Origin: Sulfurovaceae bacterium
Lineage (GTDB): Bacteria > Campylobacterota > Campylobacteria > Campylobacterales > Sulfurovaceae
NCBI GenBank assembly: GCA_028715055.1
Contig: JAQTLE010000003.1
Location: 1 to 64,000, forward strand
DNA: 64,000 nucleotides
Reading direction: 5' to 3'
Part shown: positions 18,843 to 54,496 of the stretch, piece by piece
Position numbering within the stretch: the stretch's first letter is position 1
Layout: each line of letters opens with the position of its first letter
Translations under genes and position numbers: made by a program
The notes under the pieces: model-generated
The model's input: the letters and a program-made list of their open reading frames with translations, nothing else
What the model was told of the DNA's origin: nothing
Database searches by the model: none

Positions 18843-18874
18843 AAAATTTGATAGTCATTGCAAATAACTAAAAG

Positions 18875-37500: not shown

Positions 37501-38349
37501 TTAAGAGATAATCTCTAGATTGCTCCCCATATCTGCCATTCCGCAAAAGTAAATTTTGCTTGTAACCACCCCGTCTATGCCGGCAGCTACAAATTCTTTG
37601 ACATTTTCTTTATTAATGCCTCCAGCGCCAAGTATTTTGATATGCGGATAGTTCTCGTTTTTGTGTGTTACAACTTTTTTAAGGGTTTGCAGATCAGTTT
37701 TATCCATTTGTAATACATCTACTCCGTGTTTCATTAAAGCTATAGCGTCATCAAAATCTTTTGGCTCAACTACTACTTTTTTTTCTAGAGCTTTTGTTTT
37801 TATATCATGTAGCGCCTCATAAAATGCTTCATCATTGACATATATTTTTCTATGATGTGAAAAAAACAGTACGGTTTCGCTAAGGCCCAATCTATGAGGC
37901 ATGGCACCACCGCACATTATGGATTTGATACAAAATCTTTTTGCGAACGGGAAGTGTTTCCTGGTCACTAACAATTCACAGTGTGGGTTTATGTTTGAGA
38001 TTTCTTGTTTCATATCGTATGCATAAGTAGCTATTTTGCACGAATATTCCAATATTAACTGCACGGATCTCCAAGCACTTTGGATATTTTCGTAGCTGCC
38101 GCCAAATTCTATTATGACATCGCCTTGTTTGGCTTTGGTTTTAGATGGCAGTGCAAAATATACTTCACACCCTATTAGTTCAGCCACTCTAGCAGCTTCT
38201 TCGCTGCATGATACTATGACATCTTCTCTCGTAAAAATTTGCATTTTAGCTTTTTTGTTAGGCGAATCTTGCAGTGTGGTTGTTAGATCGAAATATGGTA
38301 CATCCTCTTTGATGTATTCAAGAAGTTCATTGTCATTTAATTTGAACAT
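37501..38349 (-). CDS. modD: ModD-like pyrophosphorylase
   Basis: 282 residues with the quinolinate-phosphoribosyltransferase-like fold: N-terminal half with [12 protein letters not shown], then ATRKHFP-like [38 protein letters not shown], and a barrel end [29 protein letters not shown]. The [12 protein letters not shown] motif is the ModD hallmark. ModD proteins are found at the end of molybdate transport operons, but their reaction is not established. Last gene of the mod operon. Confidence 0.85.
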
Positions 38350-39132: not shown

Positions 39133-39986
39133 TAATTGTCCTTTGCGACTTTTGATACGTCTATAGCTATTTTTTGCCCTACCTTGTATGATCTAGCCTC
39201 GTCTTTTTCTACTTCTATAAAAATTATAGAAGTTCCAACTAAAATAGCTAATTTGCATATGCTTTCATTTTCGTTTATTTCAATTATCTCTGCTTGCAGT
39301 GTATTTTCATTTTTTTTGCTAAAAATCTTAATAGGCTTGTCTATATTAGTAATCTTGCCATGCTCTACGACGGCTACCCTGTCGCTCAATTTTATCGTTT
39401 CGCTTACGTCATGGCTAACCAAAAGCGCCGGTATTTTGAATTCTTTGTGAATTGTCAACAATTCATTTTGCAGATTTTCTCTCATTTTATTATCGAGCGC
39501 AGAGAGCGGTTCGTCTAGCAATAAAATTTTTGGTTCACATATTAACGCCCTTGCTAATGCAACGCGTTGTTTTTGACCGCCAGAAAGCTGATGCGGATAT
39601 GAATCAGATAGGCTTTCCAATTCTACCAAAGATAAAAGTTTTGGAATATTTGCTTTTTGACTTTCGTTCTGACATGCATAAAGCAAGTTTTTTTGTATAT
39701 TCATATTTGGGAACAAAGCATAATCTTGAAAAACAAATCCGACCTCTCTTTTTTGCGGTGACAGATTTATGTTTTTTTCGCTATCAAACCATACTCTGTC
39801 ATCAACTATTATTTTGCCGCTTTTAGGATTTTCAAGTCCGGCAATAAGCCTAAGAAGAGTGGTTTTTCCAGCACCGCTATCACCAAAAAGTGTTATAAAC
39901 TCATTTTTTTGTATTTGCAGTTTATAGCTTGCTTCTTTTTTTCCATTCGTCATATTTAGATCGATTTGCACATCTATATAGATCAT
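39132..39986 (-). CDS. modC: Molybdate ABC transporter ATP-binding protein
   Basis: 284 residues. Walker A GDSGAGKTT, signature LSGGQKQRVALARAL, Walker B ILLLDEPLSALD, H-loop LVSHD. After about residue 210 a short TOBE/Mop-like domain (LQAEIIEINENESICKLAIL) replaces the longer tandem of E. coli ModC (352 aa). It powers ModB and its start overlaps the modB stop by 4 bases. Confidence 0.9.
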   Translation of the reverse strand: MIYIDVQIDLNMTNGKKEASYKLQIQKNEFITLFGDSGAGKTTLLRLIAGLENPKSGKIIVDDRVWFDSEKNINLSPQKREVGFVFQDYALFPNMNIQKNLLYACQNESQKANIPKLLSLVELESLSDSYPHQLSGGQKQRVALARALICEPKILLLDEPLSALDNKMRENLQNELLTIHKEFKIPALLVSHDVSETIKLSDRVAVVEHGKITNIDKPIKIFSKKNENTLQAEIIEINENESICKLAILVGTSIIFIEVEKDEARSYKVGQKIAIDVSKVAKDN

Positions 39987-40657
39987 CTAATCTCTCCGAG
40001 AGATTTTTTATTTGTTATATATACAAGTAATAAAATAGCAAATGTAATTATAAAAAGCGTAAGTGAATACTGATGGGCCATTGCATAATTAAGAGATTCA
40101 ACTTCATCGTATATTGCAATTGAGGCAACTTTTGTTTCTCCAGAAATGTTTCCACCAATCATCAATACTACACCAAACTCACCTACCGTATGTGCAAAAG
40201 CCAAAACACAGCCAGAGATTATGCCATGTTTGGAAATCGGCAAAATTACCCTCCAAAGAGTTTCAAGCTTTGATTTGCCTAGAGTGTATGAGGCTTCGTA
40301 GATGCTTTTAGGTAATTGTGAAAGAGCCGATTGTATAGGATGAACCATAAATGGTAAACTAAATATGATAGAGCCGACCACAAGGCCGGCAAAACTAAAT
40401 GCCAGATCTATTCCAAGATCATGAAGATTTTGCCCTATAAAAGACGCCGGGCTAAATGCAATAAGAAGATAAAATCCCAAAACCGAAGGAGGAAGCACAA
40501 GTGGCATAGAAACGATAGTTTCGATTATACTTTTGTACCACTTGGTACTGTTTGCCAAAAAAAGCGCAAGCGGTACTCCGATCACAAGAAGTATGATGGT
40601 GGTTATAGTTGCCAACTTAAAAGTCAGCAACATCGTTTCTATAAAATCTATATCCAT
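39983..40657 (-). CDS. modB: Molybdate ABC transporter permease
   Basis: 224 residues from the ATG at 40657, which has GAGG seven bases upstream; the ATG at 40663 abuts that site and is less likely. Five transmembrane helices and the EAA-type loop EASYTLGKSKLETLWRVILPISKHGIISG show the ABC permease fold. LVLPPSVLGFYLLIAF is characteristic of ModB. It moves molybdate or tungstate delivered by ModA. Confidence 0.92.
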   Translation of the reverse strand: MDIDFIETMLLTFKLATITTIILLVIGVPLALFLANSTKWYKSIIETIVSMPLVLPPSVLGFYLLIAFSPASFIGQNLHDLGIDLAFSFAGLVVGSIIFSLPFMVHPIQSALSQLPKSIYEASYTLGKSKLETLWRVILPISKHGIISGCVLAFAHTVGEFGVVLMIGGNISGETKVASIAIYDEVESLNYAMAHQYSLTLFIITFAILLLVYITNKKSLGEIR

Positions 40658-40666
40658 TCCCATCCT

Positions 40667-41998
40667 CTAAAAATAGTAATTTGCCTCAACACGCACTTCT
40701 CTATTCGAGGTATCTGCCGTATAATAAGCTGTTTTATCATTTTTTTGATCCATCAGTCTTAATTTAAATTCATAGCTTTTTGACGGTTTGTAGATGATAT
40801 CAAGATTGTATTGATCGGTATCGCCATTTTGATAACCACGATCAGTCATGCTTTGATATGGCTTTTTCGTTTCATCCCTATTATACTTCGAATAGCTTAG
40901 AGATGATGTTATGCCGTCAATTATAATGTCGCTCCAATCATAATCAAACCCTGCTTTATATGCTTTTGTGCCGGCGTTCCAGTCTGTTTGGGTCATGCTT
41001 CTTGTATATCCGTCTGTCGGGAATGCTCTCCACGGAGCTATAATGTCGCCGCCGTCATCCGTTTTGCTCGCTGCAAGAAGCAGTTTCGCGCGCCCATAGT
41101 TTACCACAGCTCTGCCCATTATGATTGATGTATCTATGCTGTTATCTGAATCATAGTTATTTGCAAGAGGTTTTATAATATCCCCTGCTCCTTTGTCAAA
41201 CTGTTTGATATATCGTCCACCAAGAGTTACTATAGCTTCATCCCCGAGTTCAAACGCATAGTTAGCCTCGACCTGACCTTGGGCGACCAAATCGTTCCAA
41301 TACATTGCCCAGCCTTGAAGTTCAAGATTGTCTATAGATTTGTTTTTAGCTCCAAGTATAGCTACATTTGGGGCATCGTGTGTCAAATAATAGCTTGCTA
41401 TTTTTGTAGGCACATCGCCTGTTGTTGTTAGGTTTCCAAAAAAGCTCTCGCCCCTTTCTTTTATTTTGTTAATGTAGTCAAACTGAACAGTAGTATTTGG
41501 TATTTCGTTTGAAACTATATCAAGTCCTGATGCGGCAATAGGTATCATTTTTGTATCATTTGGTGTAATCCAAGGGTTTGTAACTAAGAACTCACCTGCT
41601 TTTATTTTACTTCTTGAGATATCATATTGCATGTAAAATTGCGCCAAAGTCGTAAAACCATCTCCGTATACGCATCCAATGTCTCTGCAAAAAAGATCTT
41701 TGCTAGTAGTCGCTGTTGCGCCATCTTCCGGATCTGTTAAGCCAAATGCATTTTGTGTAGTATACAAACCTGCTCCAACCGAAAAACCGTAAAATGGAGC
41801 AGTTTTGTATATTATACTTCCGCCTATAGCTTTTCCATTGGCAGAATCTTTGCTTGCATCCTCCCAATCTGTATAAAAATATTGGAATCTCATCCTTCCA
41901 TCCCATTTGCCGTTTTTGAAAGCTTCAGCTATAGTATCCGCATTTGAAAATGTCGCCAAAGTTAAAAATAGTGCCGTAACCGTACTTATTTTTTTCAT
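40667..41998 (-). CDS. OprD-like outer membrane porin inside the mod operon
   Basis: 443 residues with a Sec signal (MKKISTVTALFLTLATFSNA) and about 16-18 amphipathic beta strands, ending in VEANYYF with the terminal aromatic residue of outer-membrane barrels. The N-terminal FKNGKWDGRMRFQYFYTDWED is typical of the OprD-like porins of Campylobacterota. It lies between modA and modB with gaps of 15 and about 10 bases, so it is part of the operon. This suggests a channel for the oxyanion or a molybdate complex. Porins are not usual members of mod operons. Confidence 0.85.
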   Translation of the reverse strand: MKKISTVTALFLTLATFSNADTIAEAFKNGKWDGRMRFQYFYTDWEDASKDSANGKAIGGSIIYKTAPFYGFSVGAGLYTTQNAFGLTDPEDGATATTSKDLFCRDIGCVYGDGFTTLAQFYMQYDISRSKIKAGEFLVTNPWITPNDTKMIPIAASGLDIVSNEIPNTTVQFDYINKIKERGESFFGNLTTTGDVPTKIASYYLTHDAPNVAILGAKNKSIDNLELQGWAMYWNDLVAQGQVEANYAFELGDEAIVTLGGRYIKQFDKGAGDIIKPLANNYDSDNSIDTSIIMGRAVVNYGRAKLLLAASKTDDGGDIIAPWRAFPTDGYTRSMTQTDWNAGTKAYKAGFDYDWSDIIIDGITSSLSYSKYNRDETKKPYQSMTDRGYQNGDTDQYNLDIIYKPSKSYEFKLRLMDQKNDKTAYYTADTSNREVRVEANYYF

Positions 41999-42013: not shown

Positions 42014-42769
42014 TTAGTTTGGCAATATATAGCCATTTGCTTTTAGAATTTCTCTTGCTTTAGGAGAAGACATGAAATTCAAAAACTTTTTAGCAGCTAT
42101 TTGATTTTCCGGCGCACCGTTTTTTAGCCCCACCATAGCCTGATCTATTTTATTATAAGATCTTGGTTCAACTTCTACCCATTTTCCAACATTTTTCATG
42201 TCAGGAGAAAGTACTATCGATTTTGCCATAAAGCCTATTTCTGCAGCATTTGTAGTAACGTAAGTTGCGACTTGGCCTATAGATTCTCCGTTAACTATTT
42301 TATTTTGAACTTTGTCGTATACTTTATAATACTTCATAGCATTAATAGATTCTACGCCATAAGGTGCTACTTTCGGATTTGCAATAGCTATTTTTTTGAT
42401 ATTTGGATTTATTAGCCCTGCTACACCTTTTGAGAGATCAGTTCCTGTATTGCTCCAAAGTACCAATGTTCCGTATGCATATACTTTAGAAGGTGTTGTT
42501 GCAAAGCCCCCATTGGCTAGTTTTGCCGGGTATTCTACATCTGCTGATAAAAAAGCATCAAATGGGGCACCTGCCATGATCTGTTGAGTTAGTTTGCCAG
42601 ATGCGCCTGTTGTTACAGTCACATTTATCCCCGTTCGCTTAGTAAACTCTTTTGCTATATCAGCCATCGTATATTTTAGATTAGCAGCAGCAGCAACTGT
42701 GATTGTTTGTGACCATGCCGTAGAAGCTAAGACCAAATAGGCAAAGAGTAGTTTTAAAAAGAATTTCAT
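42014..42769 (-). CDS. modA: Molybdate-binding periplasmic protein
   Basis: 251 residues with a Sec signal ending TAWSQ. Ligand-site segments AAAANLKYTMADIAKEF, TTGASGKLTQQIMAGAPFDAFLSAD and GFMAKSIVL are those of ModA; the paired Ser/Thr residues bind MoO4 or WO4. It is first in modA-porin-modB-modC-unknown-modD. The start follows AAGG. The leader carries a ModE-like operator and the upstream region a sigma-54 promoter. Confidence 0.93.
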   Translation of the reverse strand: MKFFLKLLFAYLVLASTAWSQTITVAAAANLKYTMADIAKEFTKRTGINVTVTTGASGKLTQQIMAGAPFDAFLSADVEYPAKLANGGFATTPSKVYAYGTLVLWSNTGTDLSKGVAGLINPNIKKIAIANPKVAPYGVESINAMKYYKVYDKVQNKIVNGESIGQVATYVTTNAAEIGFMAKSIVLSPDMKNVGKWVEVEPRSYNKIDQAMVGLKNGAPENQIAAKKFLNFMSSPKAREILKANGYILPN

Positions 42770-42777
42770 TGTTTTTA

Positions 42778-42801
42778 CCTTATATATTTTGTGATATAAC
42801 G
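42778..42801 (-). promoter_or_regulatory. ModE-like operator at the modA start site
   Basis: On the minus strand the 24 bases read CGTTATAT, eight bases, ATATAAGG. Seven of eight arm positions pair, and the length and arms resemble the E. coli modA operator (CGTTATAT...ACATAACG, from memory). It covers the expected transcription start, as a repressor site would, and its end overlaps the ribosome binding site. Confidence 0.6.
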
Positions 42802-42809
42802 ATGGACAT

Positions 42810-42827
42810 AATGCAAGAAATGTTCCA
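42810..42827 (-). promoter_or_regulatory. Sigma-54 promoter of the mod operon
   Basis: On the minus strand: TGGAAC, five bases, TTGCAT. GG and GC are separated by exactly ten bases, as required for RpoN. The start would fall about 12 bases downstream, near 42801, leaving a ~32-base leader. A near-identical element precedes the operon at 54335. Confidence 0.75.
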
Positions 42828-42875
42828 TTCGTTGATATATCGCTTATTGACCTATATTTTTATCAATAAAAATTT

Positions 42876-42899
42876 CGTTATACTCAAAATTATACAATG
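42876..42899. promoter_or_regulatory. Possible upstream ModE-like site of the mod operon
   Basis: CGTTATAC, eight bases, ATACAATG: 24 bases with six of eight arm positions paired. It lies about 50 bases upstream of the -24 element. Weaker than the site at 42778-42801. Confidence 0.35.
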
Positions 42900-42973
42900 A
42901 AATATAAAATATTATACTTATAAACTAAAATAAACTTTGATTATATTATTGATATAATATCTTTATGGTTAAT

Positions 42974-43768
42974 TTATATTTCAGTGGCCCAAGAAATGAA
43001 TGCCCATGTGAATGGTTTGGGATGTCGATTCTTTTCAATAATAAAATGCTCATAATACTTTCTTGCTTTTAATTGTTGTTCTTCATTTAGCTCATGTACA
43101 CTCCAAATGAGTGAGGCTACAAACTCATCAACCGAGGAGTATGAGATGGCCGTTCTTTGTGTATTGATATAATCAACACAAGGAAGATAACCTTTTTTAT
43201 AAAGTATTAAAGGGATATACCAAAAATCAGGTTTAGTGATAATCTTTTTGCCGATATAATCAAGGATATCCATGTCTACAAAACTTCCACCTGTTTTATA
43301 AGTAAGATAGCATGCTTTTGTCGCTTGTGATGACATCTTGGAAAGTGCCATATCTATATCTTTGACTTCAACACTGCGTGATGCAATAGCGATATCTGCT
43401 TTTGGCAGACTGCTCCAATCATCCTCCCAGCTTAGATGATACGTCTTGACATTAGTTACCCCTTCACGTGCAGCGTAAGTTTCTAATTCTTCAAGCATTT
43501 TTTCTGAAAAGTCAATCGCTATGACTTGCTTGACTTTTTTGGCAAGCGGTACAGCAAGGGTGCCAGGACCACATCCGATATCAAGAACTACTTCATCGCC
43601 CGCAATATTCATACGCGAGATAAAGTCATTTACATAAGGGCTATTGATGACAGATGCTGCCATCTCTTTGGATTTGTCGTTCCAGTCATTTCTATCTTTA
43701 CCTTTAAAGTCGGTAGCTTTTTTATGCTCGCGGTACATCTGAGCAAAATCAATTGATTCTAAAAACAT
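42974..43768 (-). CDS. Class I SAM-dependent methyltransferase
   Basis: 264 residues with a SAM-binding motif VVLDIGCGPGTLAVPLAKKV near residue 60 and an acidic strand 2 (AIDFSEKM). The N-terminal KGKDRNDWNDKSKEMA and the C-terminal RHPKPFTWAFISWATEI resemble small-molecule O- or N-methyltransferases of metal-uptake clusters. It is the last gene of the ten-gene operon, 70 bases after a TonB-dependent receptor. The substrate is unknown; modification of the imported ligand is possible but unproven. Confidence 0.8.
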   Translation of the reverse strand: MFLESIDFAQMYREHKKATDFKGKDRNDWNDKSKEMAASVINSPYVNDFISRMNIAGDEVVLDIGCGPGTLAVPLAKKVKQVIAIDFSEKMLEELETYAAREGVTNVKTYHLSWEDDWSSLPKADIAIASRSVEVKDIDMALSKMSSQATKACYLTYKTGGSFVDMDILDYIGKKIITKPDFWYIPLILYKKGYLPCVDYINTQRTAISYSSVDEFVASLIWSVHELNEEQQLKARKYYEHFIIEKNRHPKPFTWAFISWATEI

Positions 43769-43799
43769 TTCTTTCCTTTATTTTTATTTTATATATTAG

Positions 43800-43827
43800 A
43801 TCGAAAAAGGACATAATCTTTTTCGAT
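43800..43827. repeat. Intergenic hairpin between receptor and methyltransferase genes
   Basis: ATCGAAAAAG and CTTTTTCGAT form a 10-bp perfect stem with an 8-base loop. There is no T-run after the stem on the transcribed strand. It may stabilise or partly terminate the message between the two genes. Confidence 0.6.
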
Positions 43828-43838
43828 AAATGAACTTT

Positions 43839-45914
43839 TTAGAATGTATATCTTATGTCACCATAATACATTCTGCCGGCTTCAGGAAAACCATAGCTAT
43901 AGTAGTAGTTTTTGTCCATTACATTATTAATACCCAAATCCAATGATATATTTTGGGTTACATCAAATATAACTTTTGTATTCCAAACAGAAATCGAGCC
44001 TGTAGTGTCATATACATTTTTCACATTAGGTGATGTCCCGGTAGTGCCTATGGATGCATAGCGTTTAGAATTGTACTCATAAGTATTTAACCATGTCAGG
44101 TTTTCTATAGGTTTATAATATATGGTAGCAATAAATTTATGTTTTGGAACATCCGTGATCTTTTGAGATGCATCAATTTCATTAGACATATCCAGATATG
44201 TATAGCTACCCTCTAGCGTGATAGATTCCATTGGCACATAAAATGCTGAAAGTTCAAGACCCTTTTGGGTAACTTTACCGACGTTTTGGAGTTGCTGTTG
44301 TTGTGTATAGGTACTACCGCTTTTATACCACAACGGTATATAGGCACTTTGGATATAATCGCTCACATCTGCATAGAATACTGCTCCGCTAATTGAAGCA
44401 TTGCCGAACGTTTTAGTTCCACCAATTTCATAGTTTATCGTTTTTTCGGCATCTAGATCAGGATTCGGAACAAATGTTTTGAATTTGAAAGAATATCGAT
44501 CTTTGATAGACGGTATTCGGCTTTTGCCTGCAATACCTCCATACCATGAAAGAGTATCATCAATTTTCCCATCCAGTTTAATAATAGGATCAAATGATGA
44601 CGTATCACCATTATCAAATGCTAGCGTCGTTGAATAGCCGGTAGTGGTATTTGGGCTCGTCCCTAAGGCATCATTGTAGTATGCTTCAGGCGATCCATAG
44701 TTGGTATTTTGAGCCGTATCGATTTTCTCTTTATCATAGCTCGCTCCTAAGGTTAGTTTGAGAGTATCAGAAAATGCATGAGAATCTTCTATTCCCAATG
44801 AGCCGACCCGATCTTTCATATCATATACAGCTGTTTGATTTTGCCCGCCTTCTTTATGATTGTCTATTTTATAGTGAAGTGCCATTTTTAAGGTATTAGC
44901 ATCAGATATTTTTACACCCGTTTCGACAGAACCACCTCTTGTATATTCATCATACCAACTCGGGTTTCCAATGCCTCCATAGCTGTAGGTCGAATAGGTA
45001 TTGTCTGTATATATTGCAAGTGAATTTTTAAATGTATCATTAAATAGGCGGTTTTTTAGATACCAGTTGCCAAAATCTGTTTTTGAAAGGAAATAGAGAC
45101 TTTCTTTATCCCAGTACTTCCATTGCCAAAATCCTCTTTTGCTTAAATCAGCAGCTTGATCAGGCGGGACACCCTTATCTGCATTTTGCCGAATGTAATT
45201 AAGAGCATATTCATCTGTATCATTTGGAGTATAACCTATTTTGAAGTTGATTTTATTATCTTTGGCATATGCATTATTGCGATTGCCGCCATCTTCATTT
45301 ATAGGATTTTTAACAACAAAATCATCAGAAAGAGGATAGGTATCGCGTTTTGTTTCGGAAGCAGAGGCTTGTATATAGTATTTACCTTGATTTGATCCTA
45401 TATTGAGATATCCTGTTTTTCCATCTCCGCTAAAAAGACCTACGCCGGCTTCACCCTCTAGGCTTTTGCTTGGTTTTTTGGTGACAAGATTGATAGCACC
45501 GGCGAAAGTATTGGCTCCCAACAATGGTGATGTAAGTCCTTTTGAGACTTCTATTTGAGAAAGGTCAAAAGTAGTAAATCTGGAAAAATCAACATACCCG
45601 TCATAAGGCACCGCAACAGGAATGCCGTCAATGAATAAAGGAGCATGCTTGACATCAAATCCTCGGATCATGATCATTTGTTCGTTACGCGCTCCAAAAT
45701 TTTGAATTGTTGCACCGGGCAGCAGATCCAGCGCTTCAACGATTGTTTTTCGTTCTTGGTCTTTCATTTCTTGAGAGTCGATAATTTTTACAGAAGAATT
45801 GTATGTGGTCTGCGAAGAGGCATTAACATCAATTTTTCCAAGTTCAAATACGCCATTAGCTCCATAAAGTGCAGAAATGGTGGCGAAAGATAGCATAGCG
45901 GTATAGCGGTTCAT
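43839..45914 (-). CDS. TonB-dependent outer membrane receptor (second of two)
   Basis: 691 residues from the ATG at 45914, which follows AAAGGAAAAACAT. The signal peptide is MNRYTAMLSFATISALYG. The TonB-dependent plug (about 40-160) has PGATIQNFGARNEQMIMIRGFDVKHAPLFIDGIPV, and a 22-strand barrel follows, ending in MYYGDIRYTF. The frame continues further upstream, but that part is inside the preceding gene. It sits after the flavin monooxygenase gene and may import a different or modified form of the ligand of the receptor at 49766. Confidence 0.9.
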   Translation of the reverse strand: MNRYTAMLSFATISALYGANGVFELGKIDVNASSQTTYNSSVKIIDSQEMKDQERKTIVEALDLLPGATIQNFGARNEQMIMIRGFDVKHAPLFIDGIPVAVPYDGYVDFSRFTTFDLSQIEVSKGLTSPLLGANTFAGAINLVTKKPSKSLEGEAGVGLFSGDGKTGYLNIGSNQGKYYIQASASETKRDTYPLSDDFVVKNPINEDGGNRNNAYAKDNKINFKIGYTPNDTDEYALNYIRQNADKGVPPDQAADLSKRGFWQWKYWDKESLYFLSKTDFGNWYLKNRLFNDTFKNSLAIYTDNTYSTYSYGGIGNPSWYDEYTRGGSVETGVKISDANTLKMALHYKIDNHKEGGQNQTAVYDMKDRVGSLGIEDSHAFSDTLKLTLGASYDKEKIDTAQNTNYGSPEAYYNDALGTSPNTTTGYSTTLAFDNGDTSSFDPIIKLDGKIDDTLSWYGGIAGKSRIPSIKDRYSFKFKTFVPNPDLDAEKTINYEIGGTKTFGNASISGAVFYADVSDYIQSAYIPLWYKSGSTYTQQQQLQNVGKVTQKGLELSAFYVPMESITLEGSYTYLDMSNEIDASQKITDVPKHKFIATIYYKPIENLTWLNTYEYNSKRYASIGTTGTSPNVKNVYDTTGSISVWNTKVIFDVTQNISLDLGINNVMDKNYYYSYGFPEAGRMYYGDIRYTF

Positions 45915-45925
45915 ATGTTTTTCCT

Positions 45926-46936
45926 TTAGATTAAATATGGTCTGATTTTTGTATTGAAGTCTTGTAGCATCGAGCGATTTTGACCCGCATTGTTCGATGA
46001 CGGTTTTAGTGCAAGGCGGATGTTCGGCAGCTCTTTTTGTATAGCTTGAATGGTTTCTATACATTGTGATGTCGTTCCCATTATTGCATTGTCGAAAAAT
46101 TTTTGTCCGTCGAAAAATGCTTCACGTTCTTGAAGCACGGCATCATATTTTTCTCTGTTCCATTTTGGAGGCGGAACTTCAGATGAAGCAGCGCGCATCG
46201 ATTTGACAAAATGATCAATGGAAGGACGGGCAATGCGGTAGGCATCATCATATGTATCGGCGATACAAAATACTCTCATTAATACTATCTCTGGGTTAAC
46301 CCCGGCAATAGAGAAGTAGAGGTTTTGTGCTTCTACGCACTCTTGTAAACTAGCTCCTTGTGACATCAATAGGCCGTATCCGTGATGAGCAGCGAAGCGG
46401 ATCGTGTCAGGATTGGCAAATGTAGCGACAAAGAACGGAATGCGATTTTGTAATGTTTTTGGGTGAAGAGTTACATTTTCAAATGATACAAATTCACCAT
46501 CATATGAAGATTTTTGTGAATGCAAAAGCCCATCTACTGCTTCAGCAGTTTCAAACATTGCATTACGCAAATTGTCAGGATCACGTTTGAAATGTTTAGT
46601 ATCAGGAGCAAATCCTCCTTTAGCAAATCCGGCATTGATTCGTCCATCTGATAGATGATCCAATACAGCAATATTTTCAGCCAGTCGTACCGGATGATAG
46701 AACGGTGCAAGGAACCCGGCAGTTCCTAAGCGAATAGAGTTTGTCTTAGCAGCTGCATAAGCTATCATTGCAGCAGGATCGGGGATAACGCTGAAGCCAT
46801 TGAAATGATGTTCTCCAAACCATGCTTCATCAAAACCGAGTTCATCAGCAAGTTCTACAAGACGCAATTGTTCCATGATGCTGTCATGTACGGTTCCTTC
46901 AAAATGTTCAGCAAGGCAAAAAAGTCCTATTTTCAT
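45926..46936 (-). CDS. Luciferase-like (LLM) flavin-dependent monooxygenase
   Basis: 336 residues with the bacterial-luciferase barrel: ELADELGFDEAWFGEHHFNGFSVIPDPAAMIAYAA, RLGTAGFLAPFYHPVRLAENIAVLDHLSDGRINAGFAKGG, and a short C-terminal half. The family uses FMNH2 and oxygen to oxidise or cleave organic substrates. It lies between a binding protein and a receptor in the metal-uptake operon, 11 bases before the receptor start. A role in opening or modifying an imported chelate is reasonable inference. No flavin reductase gene is seen nearby. Confidence 0.88.
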   Translation of the reverse strand: MKIGLFCLAEHFEGTVHDSIMEQLRLVELADELGFDEAWFGEHHFNGFSVIPDPAAMIAYAAAKTNSIRLGTAGFLAPFYHPVRLAENIAVLDHLSDGRINAGFAKGGFAPDTKHFKRDPDNLRNAMFETAEAVDGLLHSQKSSYDGEFVSFENVTLHPKTLQNRIPFFVATFANPDTIRFAAHHGYGLLMSQGASLQECVEAQNLYFSIAGVNPEIVLMRVFCIADTYDDAYRIARPSIDHFVKSMRAASSEVPPPKWNREKYDAVLQEREAFFDGQKFFDNAIMGTTSQCIETIQAIQKELPNIRLALKPSSNNAGQNRSMLQDFNTKIRPYLI

Positions 46937-46984
46937 TTTGTAATCTTTTGTGTGTAAATTTTAGTCATATTAAAGCCTCTTTAT

Positions 46985-47959
46985 CTATTGTTTGAATTTT
47001 GGAAAAAATAGTTTCTCAAACCGTTTTGTTTCGTTATCCAGAGAGCCTTTTAGGATATCCGGATAAAACGAATGGATCAACCAGCGAATACCGAGCAGTC
47101 TCATAAATGATGGTGGACGAGTGATATAGTTAAATGGAATCGAAGGGACGCTCAATACATGACCCGATTTGACCGCACGCAATGTTTTCCATTGTGGATT
47201 AGCTCGAACCGACGCGGCAAATGGAGGCTCCATTGCCACTATTACATCAGGATCCGCCATCATTATGGTTTCGAGTGAGATCTTTTCCATTCCGTAGTTG
47301 GAGCTCATGCGGCAGTTGATAGCATTTTTTGCTCCGGCATATTTAAAAGGTTCTAGATGAAATGAACCGTCACATTCACTAGATAAGCCATCAAGACCTT
47401 CGGCAAAATAGTAACGAACATCTTTGCGTTTATCAAGTTTGCCCTGAAGGGATTGAACTAGATTCAGTGTTTCTTTGGTATATGAAATCAGCTCATTGGC
47501 TCGTTTTGTGTTTCCGGTGAGTTTGCCGTAAAGACGAAATTGTCCGACAAGATCATTGATGGATTCATTGTGTATCATCAATACCGGAATATTAAGAGCC
47601 ATAAATTTTTTAAGCTGATCTTCTGAACCTGTTGCTTTTCCCCACATTATTATGACATCAGGTTTTGCAGCTGCCAATATTTCATAATTAGGCGTATTTC
47701 CTTGACCGAAAAAACCTCCTGCAATAGGAAGTGATGCCGCAATTCCAACGTAAGGCTTTTGCTGATCGCTAAATGGCGAGTTTATTGCCGCTACAAGAGC
47801 TGGATCAAATGCAATGACGCTCATGGTAAGCGGCGGCGAAGCAGCATAAATTTTTGTTATTTTTTCAGGTACAGAAACGCTTCTGCCGTAATCATCTACG
47901 ATTGTACGAGCCTGAGCATAACCCAAAAATATGGTTATTAGAAAAATAAATATTTTCAT
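46985..47959 (-). CDS. FecB-like ABC substrate-binding protein (second of two)
   Basis: 324 residues, Sec signal (about 1-17), then a two-lobed class III binding-protein fold: DDYGRSVSVPEKITKIYAAS, KPDVIIMWGKATG, LETIMMADPDVIVAMEP and the end RPPSFMRLLGIRWL. It contains Cys196, His201 and Cys216 in GLSSECDGSFH...NAINC, a spacing shared exactly with the protein at 52012. These residues may coordinate metal or form a disulfide. The start overlaps the ATPase stop by 4 bases. The MolA group of molybdate-binding proteins has the same overall fold. Confidence 0.85.
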   Translation of the reverse strand: MKIFIFLITIFLGYAQARTIVDDYGRSVSVPEKITKIYAASPPLTMSVIAFDPALVAAINSPFSDQQKPYVGIAASLPIAGGFFGQGNTPNYEILAAAKPDVIIMWGKATGSEDQLKKFMALNIPVLMIHNESINDLVGQFRLYGKLTGNTKRANELISYTKETLNLVQSLQGKLDKRKDVRYYFAEGLDGLSSECDGSFHLEPFKYAGAKNAINCRMSSNYGMEKISLETIMMADPDVIVAMEPPFAASVRANPQWKTLRAVKSGHVLSVPSIPFNYITRPPSFMRLLGIRWLIHSFYPDILKGSLDNETKRFEKLFFPKFKQ

Positions 47960-48747
47960 AAAGTTCCTTTATTGAATGTAGGTAGACACCTGATATACTC
48001 TTCGTGTTTTATCAAATTTGCTCCTATTCCATATACTTCATTTATCATATCTGATGTGATAACTTCATCCGGTTTGCCATCCGCAATGATTTTTTTATTG
48101 TTCATGACAACTACACGGCTGGAAACAAGAAGTGCATGATCAGGATAATGTGTAGTTTTGAGAAATGTATATCCTTGCCGGCTAAGTTCAGAGATAAGTT
48201 CGAGTAAACGTATTTGATTACCATAATCCAGTCCAGATACGGGCTCATCCATTATAAATGTATCTACCTCTTGGGTAAGTGCACGAGCCAGAAGCACCAT
48301 CTGTTTTTGTCCGCCGCTTAATTGTCCAAAAGGCTTATTCGCAAGATTGCTAATACCGATTTTGCTTAGAGATTCATAAGCAATCTCATGATCATGCGGT
48401 GATGGAGTAGCAAAAAAGCCGAGTTTGCTGACGCGCCCCATCATCACCATTTCCAGTACAGTGTAATTGAACGGCACATTGTGATACTGGGGAATATAAG
48501 CTATATGTTCCGCAATCTCTTTATGCGAATAGTTATGTATAGACTTGCCGTTAAGTTTTATTTCTCCTATATTTGAGCGTATCAGTTTCAAAATTAATCT
48601 AATAAGAGTACTTTTGCCACATCCATTAGGACCCAATAGGCTAACCACTTCGCCGCTAGATATAGTAAAATCTATTTCTTCAAGTACTGGATTTTTATTA
48701 TACGAAAAATGCAGATCTTTGACTTTTATTATAGGATTTAGTTCCAT
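47956..48747 (-). CDS. FecE-like ABC transporter ATPase
   Basis: 263 residues with Walker A GPNGCGKST, signature QLSGGQKQMVLLARAL, Walker B TFIMDEPVSGLD and H-loop TTHY. It is of the iron-chelate/cobalamin (FecE/BtuD/MolC) type and pairs with the permease upstream, whose gene it overlaps by 10 bases. It is the only ATPase in the operon, so both binding proteins probably share it. Confidence 0.92.
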   Translation of the reverse strand: MELNPIIKVKDLHFSYNKNPVLEEIDFTISSGEVVSLLGPNGCGKSTLIRLILKLIRSNIGEIKLNGKSIHNYSHKEIAEHIAYIPQYHNVPFNYTVLEMVMMGRVSKLGFFATPSPHDHEIAYESLSKIGISNLANKPFGQLSGGQKQMVLLARALTQEVDTFIMDEPVSGLDYGNQIRLLELISELSRQGYTFLKTTHYPDHALLVSSRVVVMNNKKIIADGKPDEVITSDMINEVYGIGANLIKHEEYIRCLPTFNKGTL

Positions 48748-49757
48748 GCTGCCCTCGCATTTTTTAGTACAATTATAAAAATAGGTATCCCAATCAGTGA
48801 AGTAATAATCCCAAGAGGGATCTCTACACTAAATGCAAGACGCGATACAGAATCAGCCAGTAACAAGAATATCGCTCCAACGATTGCCGATAATGGCATC
48901 AGCAATCTATGAGAAGGACCAACTGCCATGCGGATTATGTGAGGGATTATGAGCCCTACCCATCCGATCATTCCTGCCATGACAACTGAAAGCGAGCTTG
49001 CTAAAGTAGCTAAAATGATCGCACTTAAGCGGACTAGAGGTACATTTACGCCAAGGGCTTTTGCTTCTTCGTCGCCAAGACTTAGGAGATCAAAATATTT
49101 AGAAAGCGTAATCATCCCAGCAATGCTTAGCAGCATAGGGATAGAAACCAATAATACTCCGTGCAGATCAGCCATAGTAAGACTCCCCATGAGCCAATAA
49201 ACAATTGCAGGCAAGGTGCTGTATGGATCGGCGATATATTTAATCACAGATAGCAATGCAGTAAATAGCGAACCACTGATAACACCGCCAAGTACCAGCA
49301 TAATTGTTGAGCGTGAATTTGTCACCATGCTGCCAATTAGTACCGCTACCCCGACAGCGACAAATCCGAATATAAATGCCAACATCTGGACGATATACCA
49401 CTGATCACTGATCAGCATACCCAGTGCTGCGCCAAACGAGGCTCCGGCTAATACTCCCAAGATCCCGGGAGACACTAGAGGATTTATAAACATTGCCTGA
49501 AATGCAGTTCCAGAAACTGACAACGATGCACCGATCAAAATCGCAAGCAATACACGCGGCAGCCGTATTTGCAAGATAATATTATCCAGGAGCGTATATG
49601 TATCGTTACTCGCGCCTCCAAAAAGCTTGAAGTCAACATATCCCATAAAAGTATTAAAATTTATCGGATATTGTCCCAAAAGAAGTGATACTACCGTTAT
49701 CAACAGCAGTATCACCATGGCTGTAATTAGAATCCCAAATGTTTTCGTGTGTGTCAT
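48738..49757 (-). CDS. FecCD-like ABC transporter permease
   Basis: 339 residues with about ten membrane helices. Signatures of the BtuC/FecCD family are GQYPINFNTF, LRLPRVLLAILIGASLSVSGTAFQAMFINPLVSPGILGVLAGASFGAALG, and GMIGWVGLIIPHIIRMAVGPSHR. A single permease gene suggests a homodimer, as in BtuC and MolB. It lies 8 bases after the receptor gene and overlaps the ATPase gene. Confidence 0.93.
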   Translation of the reverse strand: MTHTKTFGILITAMVILLLITVVSLLLGQYPINFNTFMGYVDFKLFGGASNDTYTLLDNIILQIRLPRVLLAILIGASLSVSGTAFQAMFINPLVSPGILGVLAGASFGAALGMLISDQWYIVQMLAFIFGFVAVGVAVLIGSMVTNSRSTIMLVLGGVISGSLFTALLSVIKYIADPYSTLPAIVYWLMGSLTMADLHGVLLVSIPMLLSIAGMITLSKYFDLLSLGDEEAKALGVNVPLVRLSAIILATLASSLSVVMAGMIGWVGLIIPHIIRMAVGPSHRLLMPLSAIVGAIFLLLADSVSRLAFSVEIPLGIITSLIGIPIFIIVLKNARAAWN

Positions 49758-49765
49758 TCTATCCC

Positions 49766-52012
49766 TTAGAACTTCACACTAATACTGCCAAAGAGCCCAA
49801 ACGGTGCCCCGGTTTGATACGTACTTGACGTACCGCTTGCTGCTAGGAAGTTATCAGCAGCATTGATCGTTGCTATATATTTGCGGTCTGTAAGATTAGT
49901 AGCTGTGAGCCTAAACACAGCATCTTTTGAGCCGATGAAATTATCCATATTGTATGAAATATCGAAATCTACCAATGTATAACTGCCTATTTTTTGGGTA
50001 TTGGCGACATCCCCCCATCTGCTTGAACTATAACGCACGCTCGGAGTTAGGGTCCAATCTCCTATATGGTAAGATACGGCAGCTTTTGCCATCACTTTTG
50101 GAGCATCAGGAAGCTGTTTGCCGTCAGTTTCTACTGTTGCAGATGAAGAGCTTTGGAAATTTTGAGTAAAGTTATATCTATTATAAGACAAGCCTACTAG
50201 GAAATCTACATTATCGGTTATATTGCCGTATGCAGAAAGCTCAGCCCCATACCCAAGAGCATTTCCTACATTAGCCGGGTAATTGACTAGATATGTCGGG
50301 TCATAAATATTGGCTTGTTTGTTTTTGACAAATGAGACAAAAAGATTTGGGTTGATAGTGATATCGCCGATTTTTCTTTTTACGCCCACATCTATATTGT
50401 CAGAGAGTTCGAGATCAAGTTTGTCCCATAGCTGCTGGAGGGTGACATTTTTGCCTACGAAATTGCTACGATTCTGGATATACGTTGGGAATAGATTCAC
50501 GTCAAATCCATATGTACGTGAATAATCGATATACCCGGTAGTTGACGGATCAAATTCATAGCCAAGATAGAGCGAAGGAATCAGCGTATGAAGTGTTTTA
50601 GCATCTACGCTTGCCCAAGAATCGAGTGTACCATTTGCAATTGCTGTATCATAGTCTAAACTAGTATTTGAAGCAGTATTGCCATTGGTATAGCTATTAA
50701 GGGCTCCAATTTTAAAAGATTGATATTGCAGTCCGGCTACATAATTAAAATCATTTATTTTGCCGCTAACCTCTACAAATGGGGCTTGCAAGATATGATA
50801 GTCATTATCAGCCAATATCGCATAGCCGTCATATACTAGCTGTCCATTAACAACTTTGTATTTTACCTGATCACTAGGAGGTCCGGGAGGTAGTTGCTTG
50901 TGGTACCAGTATCCGATCTTGGCTTTGAGTGCTTCTGAGAAGGTATGGTCATATTCAGCGGTTGTGCCGAAGAGGTCGTGATCTATTCGCCAGTCGATAA
51001 CTCGGTTTGTTCCTGCGGCAGCATTTAGGTTACCGCTTGAATACCAGTAATCCCCTTTATCTTTTTTATAATAAGGTTTTATGGTGATTTTATCATTTGG
51101 TGTCGGTTTATACTCAACTTCTCCCATCACCGCCGTTGTATCAAAGCTTTGCTTGTTCCAATCAAAATAATTTACATCATTATTTGCAGTTGGATGAGTT
51201 TTTGAGAAATCTTTATCGAAATATGTGTCCAGATCTTTTGCCTCTGCATATGAGAGGTTATAATAGTTGTGATGGTCATCTGAATTATGAATAGCAAATA
51301 ATTGGGCTTTTAATTTATCATTTGGTTCATAATTTAAACCCACCATTTCATTTGTTCGTTTCAAATCCCCTTCGCCTTTGGTTTTATCGTTTGATAGATA
51401 AGAAAAAGAACCAAACCCGCTCACATCTCCGACTTTTCCTGAATCTACTCGTATAAACGTTCGCTTGAAGTCATCGCTCCCAAAACCTTGAGAAAATGTG
51501 GTACCAAAATTTTGGCTTGGATCTAAAAGATTTATATCCACTTTGCCGATCAAGCTAGAAAAACCTAAGTTTTTATCAGCCGGCACATATCCCTTGAACA
51601 GATCAATAGAAGCTATATTTTCCATATCTATCATCTCTTTGCCGCCTCCCGGGTTGCTCGAGATAGGCATGCCGTCTACCATAAATACTCCGCCTGGGCC
51701 TGACTGTGATTTTCCACGTATGCGGATAGGATCATGATAGGAAGGCTCATTTGATCCGGCTTGATCAACCGGTGTAAAGTTCACAGACGGGGAGTATTGT
51801 ATGACAGAATACGGATTCATATTGGCTTGTGTGCTTAGTGTCTCTATGCTCTTTGGGGTAAATTTTTGTTTGCCTTCGGTCGTATTTGCATCATCAATAA
51901 ATTGACGGCTATTATTAAATGTGTCGGTTACGGCAATTTCGCCCAGCTCGATAGTGTTGGCGAAAAGTATGGTCGAAGCGGCGATCGACATCATTGGTAT
52001 TAACAGTTTCAT
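49766..52012 (-). CDS. TonB-dependent outer membrane receptor (first of two)
   Basis: 748 residues with a Sec signal (MKLLIPMMSIAASTILFANT), a TonB-box-like GEIAVTDTF, and a plug with RIRGKSQSGPGGVFMVDGMPISSNPGGGKEMIDMENIASIDLFKG. The barrel ends in GLFGSISVKF with the aromatic C-terminal residue. The plug seems to be of a diverged type with a Gly-rich loop (GPGG). The ATG overlaps the stop of the binding protein gene before it by one base, so receptor and binding protein are coupled. Confidence 0.9.
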   Translation of the reverse strand: MKLLIPMMSIAASTILFANTIELGEIAVTDTFNNSRQFIDDANTTEGKQKFTPKSIETLSTQANMNPYSVIQYSPSVNFTPVDQAGSNEPSYHDPIRIRGKSQSGPGGVFMVDGMPISSNPGGGKEMIDMENIASIDLFKGYVPADKNLGFSSLIGKVDINLLDPSQNFGTTFSQGFGSDDFKRTFIRVDSGKVGDVSGFGSFSYLSNDKTKGEGDLKRTNEMVGLNYEPNDKLKAQLFAIHNSDDHHNYYNLSYAEAKDLDTYFDKDFSKTHPTANNDVNYFDWNKQSFDTTAVMGEVEYKPTPNDKITIKPYYKKDKGDYWYSSGNLNAAAGTNRVIDWRIDHDLFGTTAEYDHTFSEALKAKIGYWYHKQLPPGPPSDQVKYKVVNGQLVYDGYAILADNDYHILQAPFVEVSGKINDFNYVAGLQYQSFKIGALNSYTNGNTASNTSLDYDTAIANGTLDSWASVDAKTLHTLIPSLYLGYEFDPSTTGYIDYSRTYGFDVNLFPTYIQNRSNFVGKNVTLQQLWDKLDLELSDNIDVGVKRKIGDITINPNLFVSFVKNKQANIYDPTYLVNYPANVGNALGYGAELSAYGNITDNVDFLVGLSYNRYNFTQNFQSSSSATVETDGKQLPDAPKVMAKAAVSYHIGDWTLTPSVRYSSSRWGDVANTQKIGSYTLVDFDISYNMDNFIGSKDAVFRLTATNLTDRKYIATINAADNFLAASGTSSTYQTGAPFGLFGSISVKF

Positions 52013-53031
52013 TATTTGTCTCCTAGTATGTTTTTGGTTTGTTGATCGGTGAGTTTGACATGTAAGAAAATGTCATAGAACTCTTTTGTGCGTTTGTTCA
52101 TATCAATTTTGTAGGTTTGCGGATGAAGTATCTTGGTAAGCCATTGTATGCCAAGCACTCTCATGAATGATGGCGGCCGGTCGATCCAATTGAATGGCTG
52201 CACAGGAACCAAATAGATGCGGCCGTTTTTGACAGCTTTTAAATTTTTCCACATAGGGTCATCTTTTATATCGTTATAAACTATAGGAGTTTGCACGAAA
52301 ATGACATCAGGGTTATAATTCAGCAAAGTTTCAAATGAAATTTTTTCAAGTCCTATAAGATTGTTTTGCTGACATTTGTGTACATTTGTGCCGCCGGCAA
52401 AGTTTATTGCCTCTACGTGAAATGATTTATCACATTCAGTAGATAGTCCATCCAGCCCTTCTGCGTAATAATAGTTTGTAGGTTTTGTTTTCGAAACATT
52501 TGTCTTAACCTCATTGATTATATTTTGTGAATATTTGGCTAGCGCCTCACCTCGCTCGTTTTCTCCTATAGCATTTCCGGCAATCCTAAAGGCTGTCGGC
52601 ATATCTGTAATTTCACGAAAAGGTATCATCAATGTAGGTATATTTGTCTTTAGCATCTCTTTTTTGATAGCTTGAACCATCATATCATCTTGCCAAATGA
52701 GTACAAGTTCGGGTTTATATTTCATTAAAGTTTCCAGGTTAATGCCCTGCCCTCCTCCGTGAAATGAACCGATAACCGGCAAGGAAAGAAACTTTTTGTT
52801 TAGTAATTTTCCATCTGCTCCGTTTTGTGCATTTTTGGCTGCGAAATTAAGCCCTGTCATTTTGTCAGGATTTATCGCATAAAGCAAATAGTTCATCGGA
52901 GGTGATGAGCCAAAAACTCTAGTTACATTGTCAGGTACTATTATATTTTTGCCTTCCGCATCTGTGATAGTTTTTGCGTTAAGCATAATGCCTGTGAGCA
53001 ATATAATTAGTATACGTAATAGTATGTGCAT
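52012..53031 (-). CDS. FecB-like ABC substrate-binding protein (first of two)
   Basis: 339 residues, Sec signal (about 1-19). The fold matches the protein at 46985 along its length, including RVFGSSPPMNYLLYAINPDKM, TPTLMIPFREI-like segments and RPPSFMRVLGIQWLTK. Cys200, His205 and Cys220 (GLSTECDKSFH...NVHKC) keep the same C-x4-H-x14-C spacing, so the pair arose by duplication or two-step recruitment. It is coupled to the receptor gene, and lies 9 bases after tonB. Ligand unknown. Confidence 0.87.
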   Translation of the reverse strand: MHILLRILIILLTGIMLNAKTITDAEGKNIIVPDNVTRVFGSSPPMNYLLYAINPDKMTGLNFAAKNAQNGADGKLLNKKFLSLPVIGSFHGGGQGINLETLMKYKPELVLIWQDDMMVQAIKKEMLKTNIPTLMIPFREITDMPTAFRIAGNAIGENERGEALAKYSQNIINEVKTNVSKTKPTNYYYAEGLDGLSTECDKSFHVEAINFAGGTNVHKCQQNNLIGLEKISFETLLNYNPDVIFVQTPIVYNDIKDDPMWKNLKAVKNGRIYLVPVQPFNWIDRPPSFMRVLGIQWLTKILHPQTYKIDMNKRTKEFYDIFLHVKLTDQQTKNILGDK

Positions 53032-53040
53032 GTTTGTTCC

Positions 53041-53778
53041 TTATGATTTTTTTAATGAGAATGCGATTGGGATACTCAATTCAAAAGTCTTTCCGAGTGC
53101 CGGATAACGACCGCTTAGGCTGAGAATTGTTTGAATCGCTTTTGTATCGAGCATATCGCTGCCGCTAGTTGATTTGACTTTTGCAGTTTCAACTGTACCG
53201 TCTGGATTTAGGATGAAAAAAGCCAAAACCTCTCCTTCAAGCCGTAATTTACGAGCTATCGCCGGATAAGTAATGGCATTTTCGATCATGGCTCGAATAC
53301 GCCCAAGCAATGCATCTTCGATTTCTTTACTAGAATTTGTGTTTTTTGATGGTTCATTTTCGTTTTTATTTGAAACACTCAAATGAGCTAAATCATCCGG
53401 AGATTGGTCTGAAATAGAAGATACAGCAGAGGATATGGCTGGAGGCGTGAACCTCTCAGGGGATACCGAAGGGGAAAGTAACGGTATCCCCTGAGGGGTC
53501 GTTGGTTGCAAGATTTTATTTTGCGCTTTGGTTGTTTGCATCGGCGGTTGTACAATATGTTCAATATCGTTGGAAACAGGAGCAAATTCCGACAAAGAAA
53601 TAGTTATTCTTCCTTCGGACTTTGGTAATAGAATGGGATGGCTCGTTGTGCAATACAGCCCAGCACCTACGAATGCAGCATAAATTGCAAGCGATGCAAA
53701 AAATGATTGGATGTTTCTCATAAAAGATTCATCGTTTTGCAGTTTTTCAAATGTAATGATTTGATCTAGAGGAATCAT
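53041..53778 (-). CDS. tonB: TonB energy-transducing protein
   Basis: 245 residues from the ATG at 53778, which overlaps the haemoglobin stop (ATGA) and follows GGGGAAAAGA. One membrane helix (about 22-42), a Pro/Ser/Gln-rich periplasmic stretch, and the TonB C-terminal domain (about 160-245) with YPAIARKLRLEGEVLAFFILNPDGTVETAKVKSTSGSDMLDTKAI. No exbB or exbD is present in the window, so this TonB must use ExbBD encoded elsewhere. It is a dedicated partner for the two receptors. Confidence 0.88.
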   Translation of the reverse strand: MIPLDQIITFEKLQNDESFMRNIQSFFASLAIYAAFVGAGLYCTTSHPILLPKSEGRITISLSEFAPVSNDIEHIVQPPMQTTKAQNKILQPTTPQGIPLLSPSVSPERFTPPAISSAVSSISDQSPDDLAHLSVSNKNENEPSKNTNSSKEIEDALLGRIRAMIENAITYPAIARKLRLEGEVLAFFILNPDGTVETAKVKSTSGSDMLDTKAIQTILSLSGRYPALGKTFELSIPIAFSLKKS

Positions 53779-54335
53779 TCTTTTCCCCAAAAAGCAGCAT
53801 ACGGATATCTATCAATAGGCATCATTGTTGTTCGACGATTTATCATGCGCATCGATAACGGTTCTATCCAATTCCAAAATTCTTCTATAAGTTCTTCGGG
53901 CATTTGTAGATCATTGATCGTTTTTTTGTACATCATTAGCCATATTTCACGTCCTTTTTCATCAACAGTAAAAGGCAAATGACGTCTTCTTAGGGCCGGA
54001 TGACCATGTATAGGGGAATATGCTTTATCACCGCCCAATGCTTCTATAAAGAAATCGGCAGTTTTTTCGGTCGCAAATATAAATGCGTCATTATCGGCAG
54101 GAAAAAGATTGCCTATGGAACTCTTTCTCAGTAAATTGTGATGATGATGTACCATAGCACGAATATTTGCTTCACCCCATTGTTTATAAAGAGCATTTGT
54201 AGGGAATGGCACTTCGGGGCATATGAAGTCGATTTTCGGTTCAGCTAAAAAAATCATTTCTCCGGCGGTATGAAAAGGTTTCGTGCCACAAGCACTAAAT
54301 GAAGTTATATTTTGTCCGTTAGAAGTTATGAACAT
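53775..54335 (-). CDS. Truncated-haemoglobin-like protein (group II type)
   Basis: 186 residues. The globin core begins near residue 50; the proximal-haem signature is HGHPALRRRHLPF with His119, and IWLMMYKKT follows, as in truncated haemoglobins (usually 120-135 aa). The first ~50 residues are an extra N-terminal part with two Cys. MVHHHHN near 61-67 is a run of His. It is the first gene of the operon behind the sigma-54 promoter. Oxygen supply or redox sensing for the monooxygenase and uptake system is inference. The start follows AAAGGA. Confidence 0.8.
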   Translation of the reverse strand: MFITSNGQNITSFSACGTKPFHTAGEMIFLAEPKIDFICPEVPFPTNALYKQWGEANIRAMVHHHHNLLRKSSIGNLFPADNDAFIFATEKTADFFIEALGGDKAYSPIHGHPALRRRHLPFTVDEKGREIWLMMYKKTINDLQMPEELIEEFWNWIEPLSMRMINRRTTMMPIDRYPYAAFWGKE

Positions 54336-54346
54336 CGATTTGATTC

Positions 54347-54370
54347 CTTTGTATATTTATTTATATAACG
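54347..54370 (-). promoter_or_regulatory. ModE-like operator near the start of the TonB operon
   Basis: On the minus strand: CGTTATAT, eight bases, ATACAAAG. Six of eight arm positions pair, in the same 24-base geometry and the same place (over the expected start) as the site before modA. Confidence 0.5.
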
Positions 54371-54382
54371 CGTAAAACAAGG

Positions 54383-54400
54383 AATGCAAAAACTATTCCA
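54383..54400 (-). promoter_or_regulatory. Sigma-54 promoter of the haemoglobin-TonB operon
   Basis: On the minus strand: TGGAAT, five bases, TTGCAT, with GG-N10-GC spacing. It matches the mod promoter at 15 of 18 positions and is 48 bases from its start codon, against 41 for mod. Confidence 0.75.
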
Positions 54401-54405
54401 CAGGG

Positions 54406-54439
54406 ATATGCGTTATATTTATTTTTAAATAACGCATAT
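54406..54439. promoter_or_regulatory. Perfect ModE-like inverted repeat upstream of the TonB operon
   Basis: ATATGCGTTAT (54406-54416) and ATAACGCATAT (54429-54439) form perfect 11-base arms around a 12-base spacer. The inner 24 bases start CGTTATATT and end AAATAACG, the same length and arms as I recall for the E. coli modA ModE operator. It is just upstream of the -24 element. Confidence 0.7.
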
Positions 54440-54454
54440 TAAAGTAATTTGGCT

Positions 54455-54496
54455 TAAATAATCATTTATTATTAGTCTAAATAATCATTTATTATT
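54455..54496. promoter_or_regulatory. Two identical 19-base direct repeats, candidate enhancer or Fur site
   Basis: TAAATAATCATTTATTATT occurs at 54455-54473 and again at 54478-54496, with starts 23 bases apart (about two helical turns). The units lie about 56-97 bases upstream of the -24 element, where sigma-54 activators usually bind. The unit also resembles a Fur box. The remainder of this 324-base gap is AT-rich without a gene. Confidence 0.5.

Follow-up and report, generated by a model that had tools for sequence, protein, structure and literature searches.

Why should a molybdate uptake operon and a neighboring operon for a siderophore-type importer be preceded by the same kind of promoter? 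The question is raised by a stretch of 64,000 nt from a Sulfurovaceae bacterium (GCA_028715055.1, contig JAQTLE010000003.1, positions 1-64,000, forward strand; hereafter, the window), in which a mod operon lies next to a ten-gene operon encoding a globin and TonB (here termed ton), both on the minus strand. A preliminary description of this DNA had proposed that the two operons share sigma-54 promoters and ModE-like operators. Our analysis directly establishes which sites are present and how often they would arise by chance, which regulators the genome encodes, and the extent of synteny and conservation. The best explanation, which we consider probable, is that the two operons work as a single module for molybdenum acquisition, controlled by a double switch that is turned on by NifA-sigma54 and off by ModE.

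A sigma-54 (-24/-12) element is located on the minus strand upstream of modA (42812-42827, TGGAACATTTCTTGCA), and another upstream of the globin gene that opens the ton operon (54385-54400, TGGAATAGTTTTTGCA). As the preliminary description had claimed, the two are alike, with 15 of 18 positions identical and GG-N10-GC in each. Across the whole 1.76 Mb genome, with the reversed pattern as control, TGGMAYN5TTGCW has 26 matches (control, 1) and TGGAAYN5WTGCA, the form found at nifH, has 13 (control, 1). Nine of these 13 sit just 5' of a gene, namely at six nif promoters (nifH, a TPR/NifU-type gene, nifE, a NifX-type gene, a ferredoxin-nifB unit, and a nifA-containing unit), at mod, at ton, and at a methyltransferase-like gene (contig C1:14735). 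The mod and ton operons have their -24/-12 element in common with the nif promoters, which is the feature by which we assign genes to the NifA-sigma54 regulon. Other TGGMAYN5TTGCW matches fall mostly within larger open reading frames (ORFs) and were treated as chance, and a sigma-54-like match in locus L043 was discounted because it lies between a convergent gene pair with no gene start downstream.

The regulators expected for such promoters are encoded in the nif cluster, which contains RpoN (411 aa, all three domains) and NifA, the sole strong sigma-54 activator in the genome (TIGR01817, 485 bits, model positions 2-439 of 534). FlhA was not found in the genome, suggesting that flagella are absent, so sigma-54 appears to serve, and to be dedicated to, nitrogen fixation. 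The preliminary description predicted a single molybdenum-responsive regulon of which TonB-dependent import would be part; this is supported, but a second signal was missed: given that the nif promoters carry the same element and that rpoN and the only activator, NifA, are located in the nif cluster, this signal would be nitrogen fixation, and the regulon is best read as responding to nitrogen fixation and molybdenum together.

The predicted NifA stops after the AAA+ lid, and its DNA-binding domain, a Fis-type helix-turn-helix (HTH), is absent. Other known activators, e.g., FlgR of Helicobacter pylori, likewise have no DNA-binding domain and act from solution. Of the NifA upstream activating sequence (UAS; TGT-N10-ACA), we found no copy near the mod element and a single one, ~230 bp upstream, at the ton element; a nifH-type UAS is also absent. 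A missing UAS is expected because this NifA has no HTH, so it does not count against activation from solution, and a solution-acting NifA would fit this lack. A NifA UAS was also not found in the mod/mol promoters of HTH-bearing lineages. As a separate observation, the C-terminal HTH has been lost in NifA of this genus (L001:1243-2598 = G000:C3:361578-362933) and of Sulfurospirillum, and it is kept in NifA of Sulfuricurvum/Sulfurimonas. A UAS-like TGCA-N6-ATTCYTACA precedes nifH in 10 of the 11 genomes classed as HTH-bearing (by lineage where NifA was not read) versus none of the 8 classed as HTH-less; that is, loss of the HTH domain goes along with loss of the UAS-like site.

The second switch is suggested by ModE-type operators, which we scored by their mismatches to the 24-base pattern CGTTAT-N12-ATAACG. 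The preliminary description had placed such an inverted repeat over the expected start of each operon, and this is where we found it, with one mismatch at mod (O2, 42778-42801, 10 bp downstream of the sigma-54 element) and two at ton (O2, 54347-54370, 14 bp downstream). When the 45 bp downstream of each gene-proximal sigma-54 site were compared with dinucleotide shuffles, the box gave p=0.0005 at mod, 0.0065 at ton, and 0.0045 at the methyltransferase-like gene, and no box was detected downstream of the six nif promoters (p>0.8 for each). Among the nine sites, only those three have a ModE box 3-14 bp 3' of the element, and the dual-control set therefore comprises exactly three promoters. The further upstream copies hold firmly for ton, where the box O1 (54411-54434), 10 bp upstream of the sigma-54 element, is perfect (0/2000 shuffles), and weakly for mod, where the box at 42876-42899 has two mismatches. 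Random occurrence of the operator in the genome, named beforehand as a point against the regulon, is what the counts at ≤2 mismatches indicate: with 396 matches versus 698 for the reversed control, the pattern is not enriched and lies at or below chance. For this reason, we rejected the motif by itself as evidence; only where it lies, and the fact that relatives conserve it, make it informative. A search of the genome for modE, as had been recommended, retrieved a full-length ModE with an HTH and two TOBE domains.

Two observations on contig C1 concern these motifs elsewhere in the genome. The only other exact ModE box (L056:5147-5170) lies between a gene for an LRV-type repeat protein (minus strand) and an operon (5386-12860) encoding a rhodanese and a molybdoenzyme of the type II dimethyl sulfoxide reductase family, and this operon is possibly a ModE target. 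The methyltransferase-like gene with a sigma-54 element and a ModE-like box, the third of its kind (L056:13897-14750, minus strand), has a reading frame that is seemingly broken at a run of six C, owing either to an assembly error or to a real change.

From this layout, we infer protein binding at the sites and an AND logic. During nitrogen fixation, NifA would activate sigma-54 polymerase at the -24/-12 elements; when molybdenum is sufficient, molybdate-loaded ModE would occupy the 24-base operator over the start site and block transcription. A cell that is fixing nitrogen while short of molybdenum would express both operons at a high level.

The ton promoter region also contains a putative sigma-70-type promoter, P1 (TTTAAG ... 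TTTAAT/TAATAT; 54436-54458, minus strand), which abuts O1. A TTTAAG...TATAAT block directly before the upstream ModE box is conserved in relatives; 16 of 26 promoters match it at 5 or all 6 of six positions versus ~14% in shuffles. Our reading is that of tandem promoters, a sigma-70-like P1 with operator O1 and a sigma-54 P2 with operator O2, both presumably repressed by ModE, in which P1 would permit ModE-controlled expression without nitrogen fixation. The abutting block in many relatives, along with the existence of carriers without nif genes, would also suit a scheme in which ModE control and a molybdenum cargo are right and the sigma-54 element is simply unused, transcription starting from the upstream promoter. 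We regard that scheme as very unlikely, given that the element belongs to a set of nine gene-proximal copies, of which six lie at nif genes, and that several lineages have an element in the matching position, in the form found at nifH in that lineage.

Conservation was assessed in 119 relatives scanned for TBDR1, the first TonB-dependent receptor of the ton operon and the conserved marker of the system, and in 36 TBDR1 loci from GTDB species (650 kb). TBDR1 is present in 11 of the 119 relatives, and the 36 loci all belong to Campylobacterota (by name or affinity) except one from Desulfocapsa, the nearest being from Sulfurovaceae. Its usual companions are the periplasmic binding protein SBP1, the FecCD permease, and the ATPase, plus modA/B/C/D, an OprD-type porin, or modE; the TonB receptor/FecCD importer adjoins mod or modE genes in most of the 36 loci, and in two close relatives, the mod and ton genes follow each other without interruption. 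The 36 loci contain 14 exact ModE boxes (0.0 expected) and 54 boxes with ≤1 mismatch (1.2 expected). Moreover, nifH occurs in 7/11 TBDR1 carriers versus 13/108 non-carriers (Fisher p=3e-4, uncorrected for phylogeny) and in 19 of the 31 carrier genomes from the wider scan.

The arrangement of a sigma-54 element between two ModE boxes recurs in relatives L092 (both operons) and L093, and in L085 with GT replacing GC at -12; in L087, the downstream box alone was called. In Sulfuricurvum and Sulfurimonas, the nifH element is NGAAC-N5-TTGCA, with a single G at -24, and their mol/mod promoters have an element of this nifH form between two ModE boxes (CGAACCGTTTTTGCA, TGAATGCTTTTTGCA). This single G (NGAAC/T) instead of GG, seen at nifH in L120-L139 and at the mol promoters in L088-L099, constitutes a lineage-specific form of the sigma-54 promoter. 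In three genomes lacking both nif genes and an activator (L094, L095, and L118), the ModE boxes are kept, and the sigma-54 element is absent.

What, then, does the ton operon import? Its ten genes, as previously described, are contiguous (42974-54335, minus strand), with gaps of ≤70 bp or overlaps. In order, they encode a bacterial-type globin (53775-54335, PF01152), TonB (53041-53790), SBP1, a cluster-A periplasmic binding protein (52012-53031), TBDR1 (49766-52012), a FecCD-type permease (48738-49757), an ATP-binding cassette (ABC) ATPase (47956-48747), a second periplasmic binding protein, SBP2 (46985-47959), a luciferase-like (LLM) monooxygenase (45926-46936), a second TonB-dependent receptor, TBDR2 (43839-45914; its ORF is open to 46064, and 45914 is the likely start), and an S-adenosylmethionine (SAM) methyltransferase-like protein (42974-43768). 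A receptor beta-barrel and tonB thus lie in one operon, the combination by which we class the system as TonB-dependent; Pfam detected the receptor plug domain in TBDR2 but not in TBDR1. Outside the operon, a gene for another TonB-dependent receptor is located downstream of nifK in the nif cluster (L053:3371-5473).

Among solved structures, the FecCD permease best matches MolB (HI1471; 1.8e-62), followed by FhuB (2.9e-47). The AlphaFold model of SBP1 (mean pLDDT, a per-residue confidence score, of 84.5) aligned best to 4pag of Sulfurospirillum (Z 39.6, root-mean-square deviation [rmsd] 2.1, 320 aligned residues), followed by 4hn9, 4ovk, and MolA (3psa, Z 27.1, rmsd 3.4, 298 aligned), with siderophore/haem binders behind; by sequence, SBP1 matches MolA at 2.4e-14, and 4pag, 4ovk, and 4hn9 rank above MolA in sequence or structure. 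We did not take the ligand from the SBP1 fold, which is not decisive, as iron, nickel, and molybdate proteins all match. The receptors are related to siderophore receptors and to CntO, a metallophore receptor. Considering the ModE boxes, the mod/modE synteny, the co-regulation with nif, and the MolB-nearest permease, the likeliest cargo is a chelated molybdenum species, and iron is the main rival.

Under that rival, regulation would be as proposed, and the ton operon would import iron, as siderophore or haem, for the iron demand of nitrogenase, with ModE merely tying it to the program. The receptor families and the binding-protein fold are indeed those of iron chelates and haem, a globin is encoded in the operon, and nitrogenase needs much iron. 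Nevertheless, we judge an iron cargo unlikely: ModE boxes are found at the operon in most carriers, nif-less ones included, the operon adjoins modABC/modE/modD, and the permease is nearest to MolB. In addition, the only non-ModE repeat of the ton promoter region, comprising two tandem copies of AATAATAAATGATTATT (54457-54496, minus strand), provides the sole two matches to the palindrome AATAATNNNTGATTATT in the genome; being confined to this region, it is unlike a Fur box, and Fur control of ton is unlikely.

The cargo could also be another ModE-relevant or cofactor-related species, such as tungsten, a corrinoid, or vanadium, instead of molybdenum for nitrogenase. ModE and MolA-type proteins bind tungstate too (PMC4031551), the FecCD and receptor models include BtuC/BtuB, and TBDR1 occurs in nif-less genomes. 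The co-regulation with nif, the linkage to modABC and modD, the sequence gap between the MolB and BtuC matches, and the presence of one strong nifH, with no second nitrogenase seen, make this the least probable alternative.

Several points weigh against the double-switch module and its molybdenum cargo. The binding proteins are less close to MolA than to 4pag and other cluster-A proteins, whose ligand is either unstated or iron; receptors of the ton-operon fold usually carry iron chelates; and molybdate is small and probably passes porins, so that active import across the outer membrane is not obviously needed. As nifH is lacking in 12 of the 31 carrier genomes, the transporter itself is not nitrogenase-specific. 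With respect to the promoters, two nif-less, activator-less assemblies (L103 and L106) retain a sigma-54-like element, and in two nif carriers (L101 and L113), no such element lies close to the ModE box; we dropped the strict rule that the element occurs only where nif is present, since these genomes break it in one direction and the other, respectively. The relaxed sigma-54 pattern also catches Shine-Dalgarno/start sequences as false matches (AGGAACAAAAAATG), and the NGAAYN5NTGCA matches AGGAACAAAAAATGTA in L086/L087 were treated as false because they resemble a ribosome-binding site plus start.

The module that we favor would divide the task between the two operons. The mod operon encodes, in order, ModA (42014-42769, TIGR01256 over cut-off), an OprD/MOMP-type porin (40667-41998), ModB (39983-40663, TIGR02141 over cut-off), ModC (39132-39986, matching the modC model below its cut-off), a diverged paralogue of the ton-operon methyltransferase (38365-39132; 21% identity, SAM-binding glycine motif lost, no Pfam or NCBIfam match), and ModD (37501-38349, TIGR01334 over cut-off), all on the minus strand; here the porin and ModABC would handle free molybdate. 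In the ton operon, TonB, the two receptors, the two cluster-A binding proteins, and the MolB-like FecCD/ATPase importer would import molybdenum in a scarce and probably chelated form, and the luciferase-like monooxygenase and methyltransferase may process the ligand. After modD, homologues of folE, nifS, and nifU follow on the same strand (named by eye from translations). Elsewhere in the window (12028-21403), type I secretion genes (membrane-fusion protein, ABC transporter, and TolC-like) lie beside a repetitive adhesin-like protein of 842 aa.

Parts of this design are known. In Rhodobacter capsulatus, morAB, which encodes a molybdate-type ABC transporter, is activated by NifA and repressed by the ModE-like MopA/MopB (PMC6925177), so sigma-54/NifA activation and ModE-family repression also meet on one molybdate-transport promoter there, and the regulatory logic is not new. 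However, morABC encodes a ModABC-type importer without TonB components, whereas here a TonB-dependent receptor and FecCD importer are also covered, and the NifA of the present genome has no DNA-binding domain. In Pseudomonas stutzeri A1501, modAB lies in the nif island and is NifA-sigma54 dependent, likewise placing molybdate uptake genes within the nif regulon, although the sections of that source on modAB describe no ModE operator or TonB system (PMC2820453). The type II importer MolBC-A of Haemophilus influenzae (HI1470-1472), which is reported to be of low affinity and to have a poorly understood regulation (PMC4031551), shares with ton a FecCD-type permease, of which MolB is the best solved match, an ATPase, and a cluster-A binding protein; ton adds TonB, two receptors, two binding proteins, and accessory enzymes. 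TonB-dependent siderophore/haem operons similarly combine receptor, TonB, binding protein, FecCD permease, and ATPase, but ton differs from them by its ModE operators, nif-type sigma-54 promoters, and mod linkage. In a Sulfurovum population genome from Zeitz, modABCDE, nif genes, and TonB are listed, with TonB assigned to iron (PMC4674564). The preliminary view that sigma-54 control of molybdate uptake together with a siderophore-type importer is non-standard was thus overstated for molybdate (PMC2820453, PMC6925177), but it stands for the TonB importer, for which we found no precedent: our literature search, with subscription journals mostly outside its reach, yielded no report of TonB-dependent molybdenum import or of a ModE-controlled TonB receptor, and molybdenum goes unmentioned in a review from 2024 on TonB-dependent substrates. 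The new part is the TonB-dependent component of a NifA/ModE-type regulon.

Chemolithoautotrophic diazotrophs often live in sulfidic water, in which molybdenum is tied up as thiomolybdates or on organic matter. We are evenly divided on the broader proposal that TBDR1 and its FecCD/SBP partners constitute TonB-dependent uptake of a molybdenum chelate (molybdophore), conserved in Campylobacterota under ModE and, in diazotrophic lineages, also under NifA-sigma54. Both operons having the same two switches suggests that a molybdenum compound is actively pulled through the outer membrane to supply nitrogenase, and the placing of TonB-driven import under ModE control points to a need of such diazotrophs to scavenge molybdenum. 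This provides a testable claim on the molybdenum supply of dark nitrogen fixation as well as a genomic marker for molybdenum scavenging.

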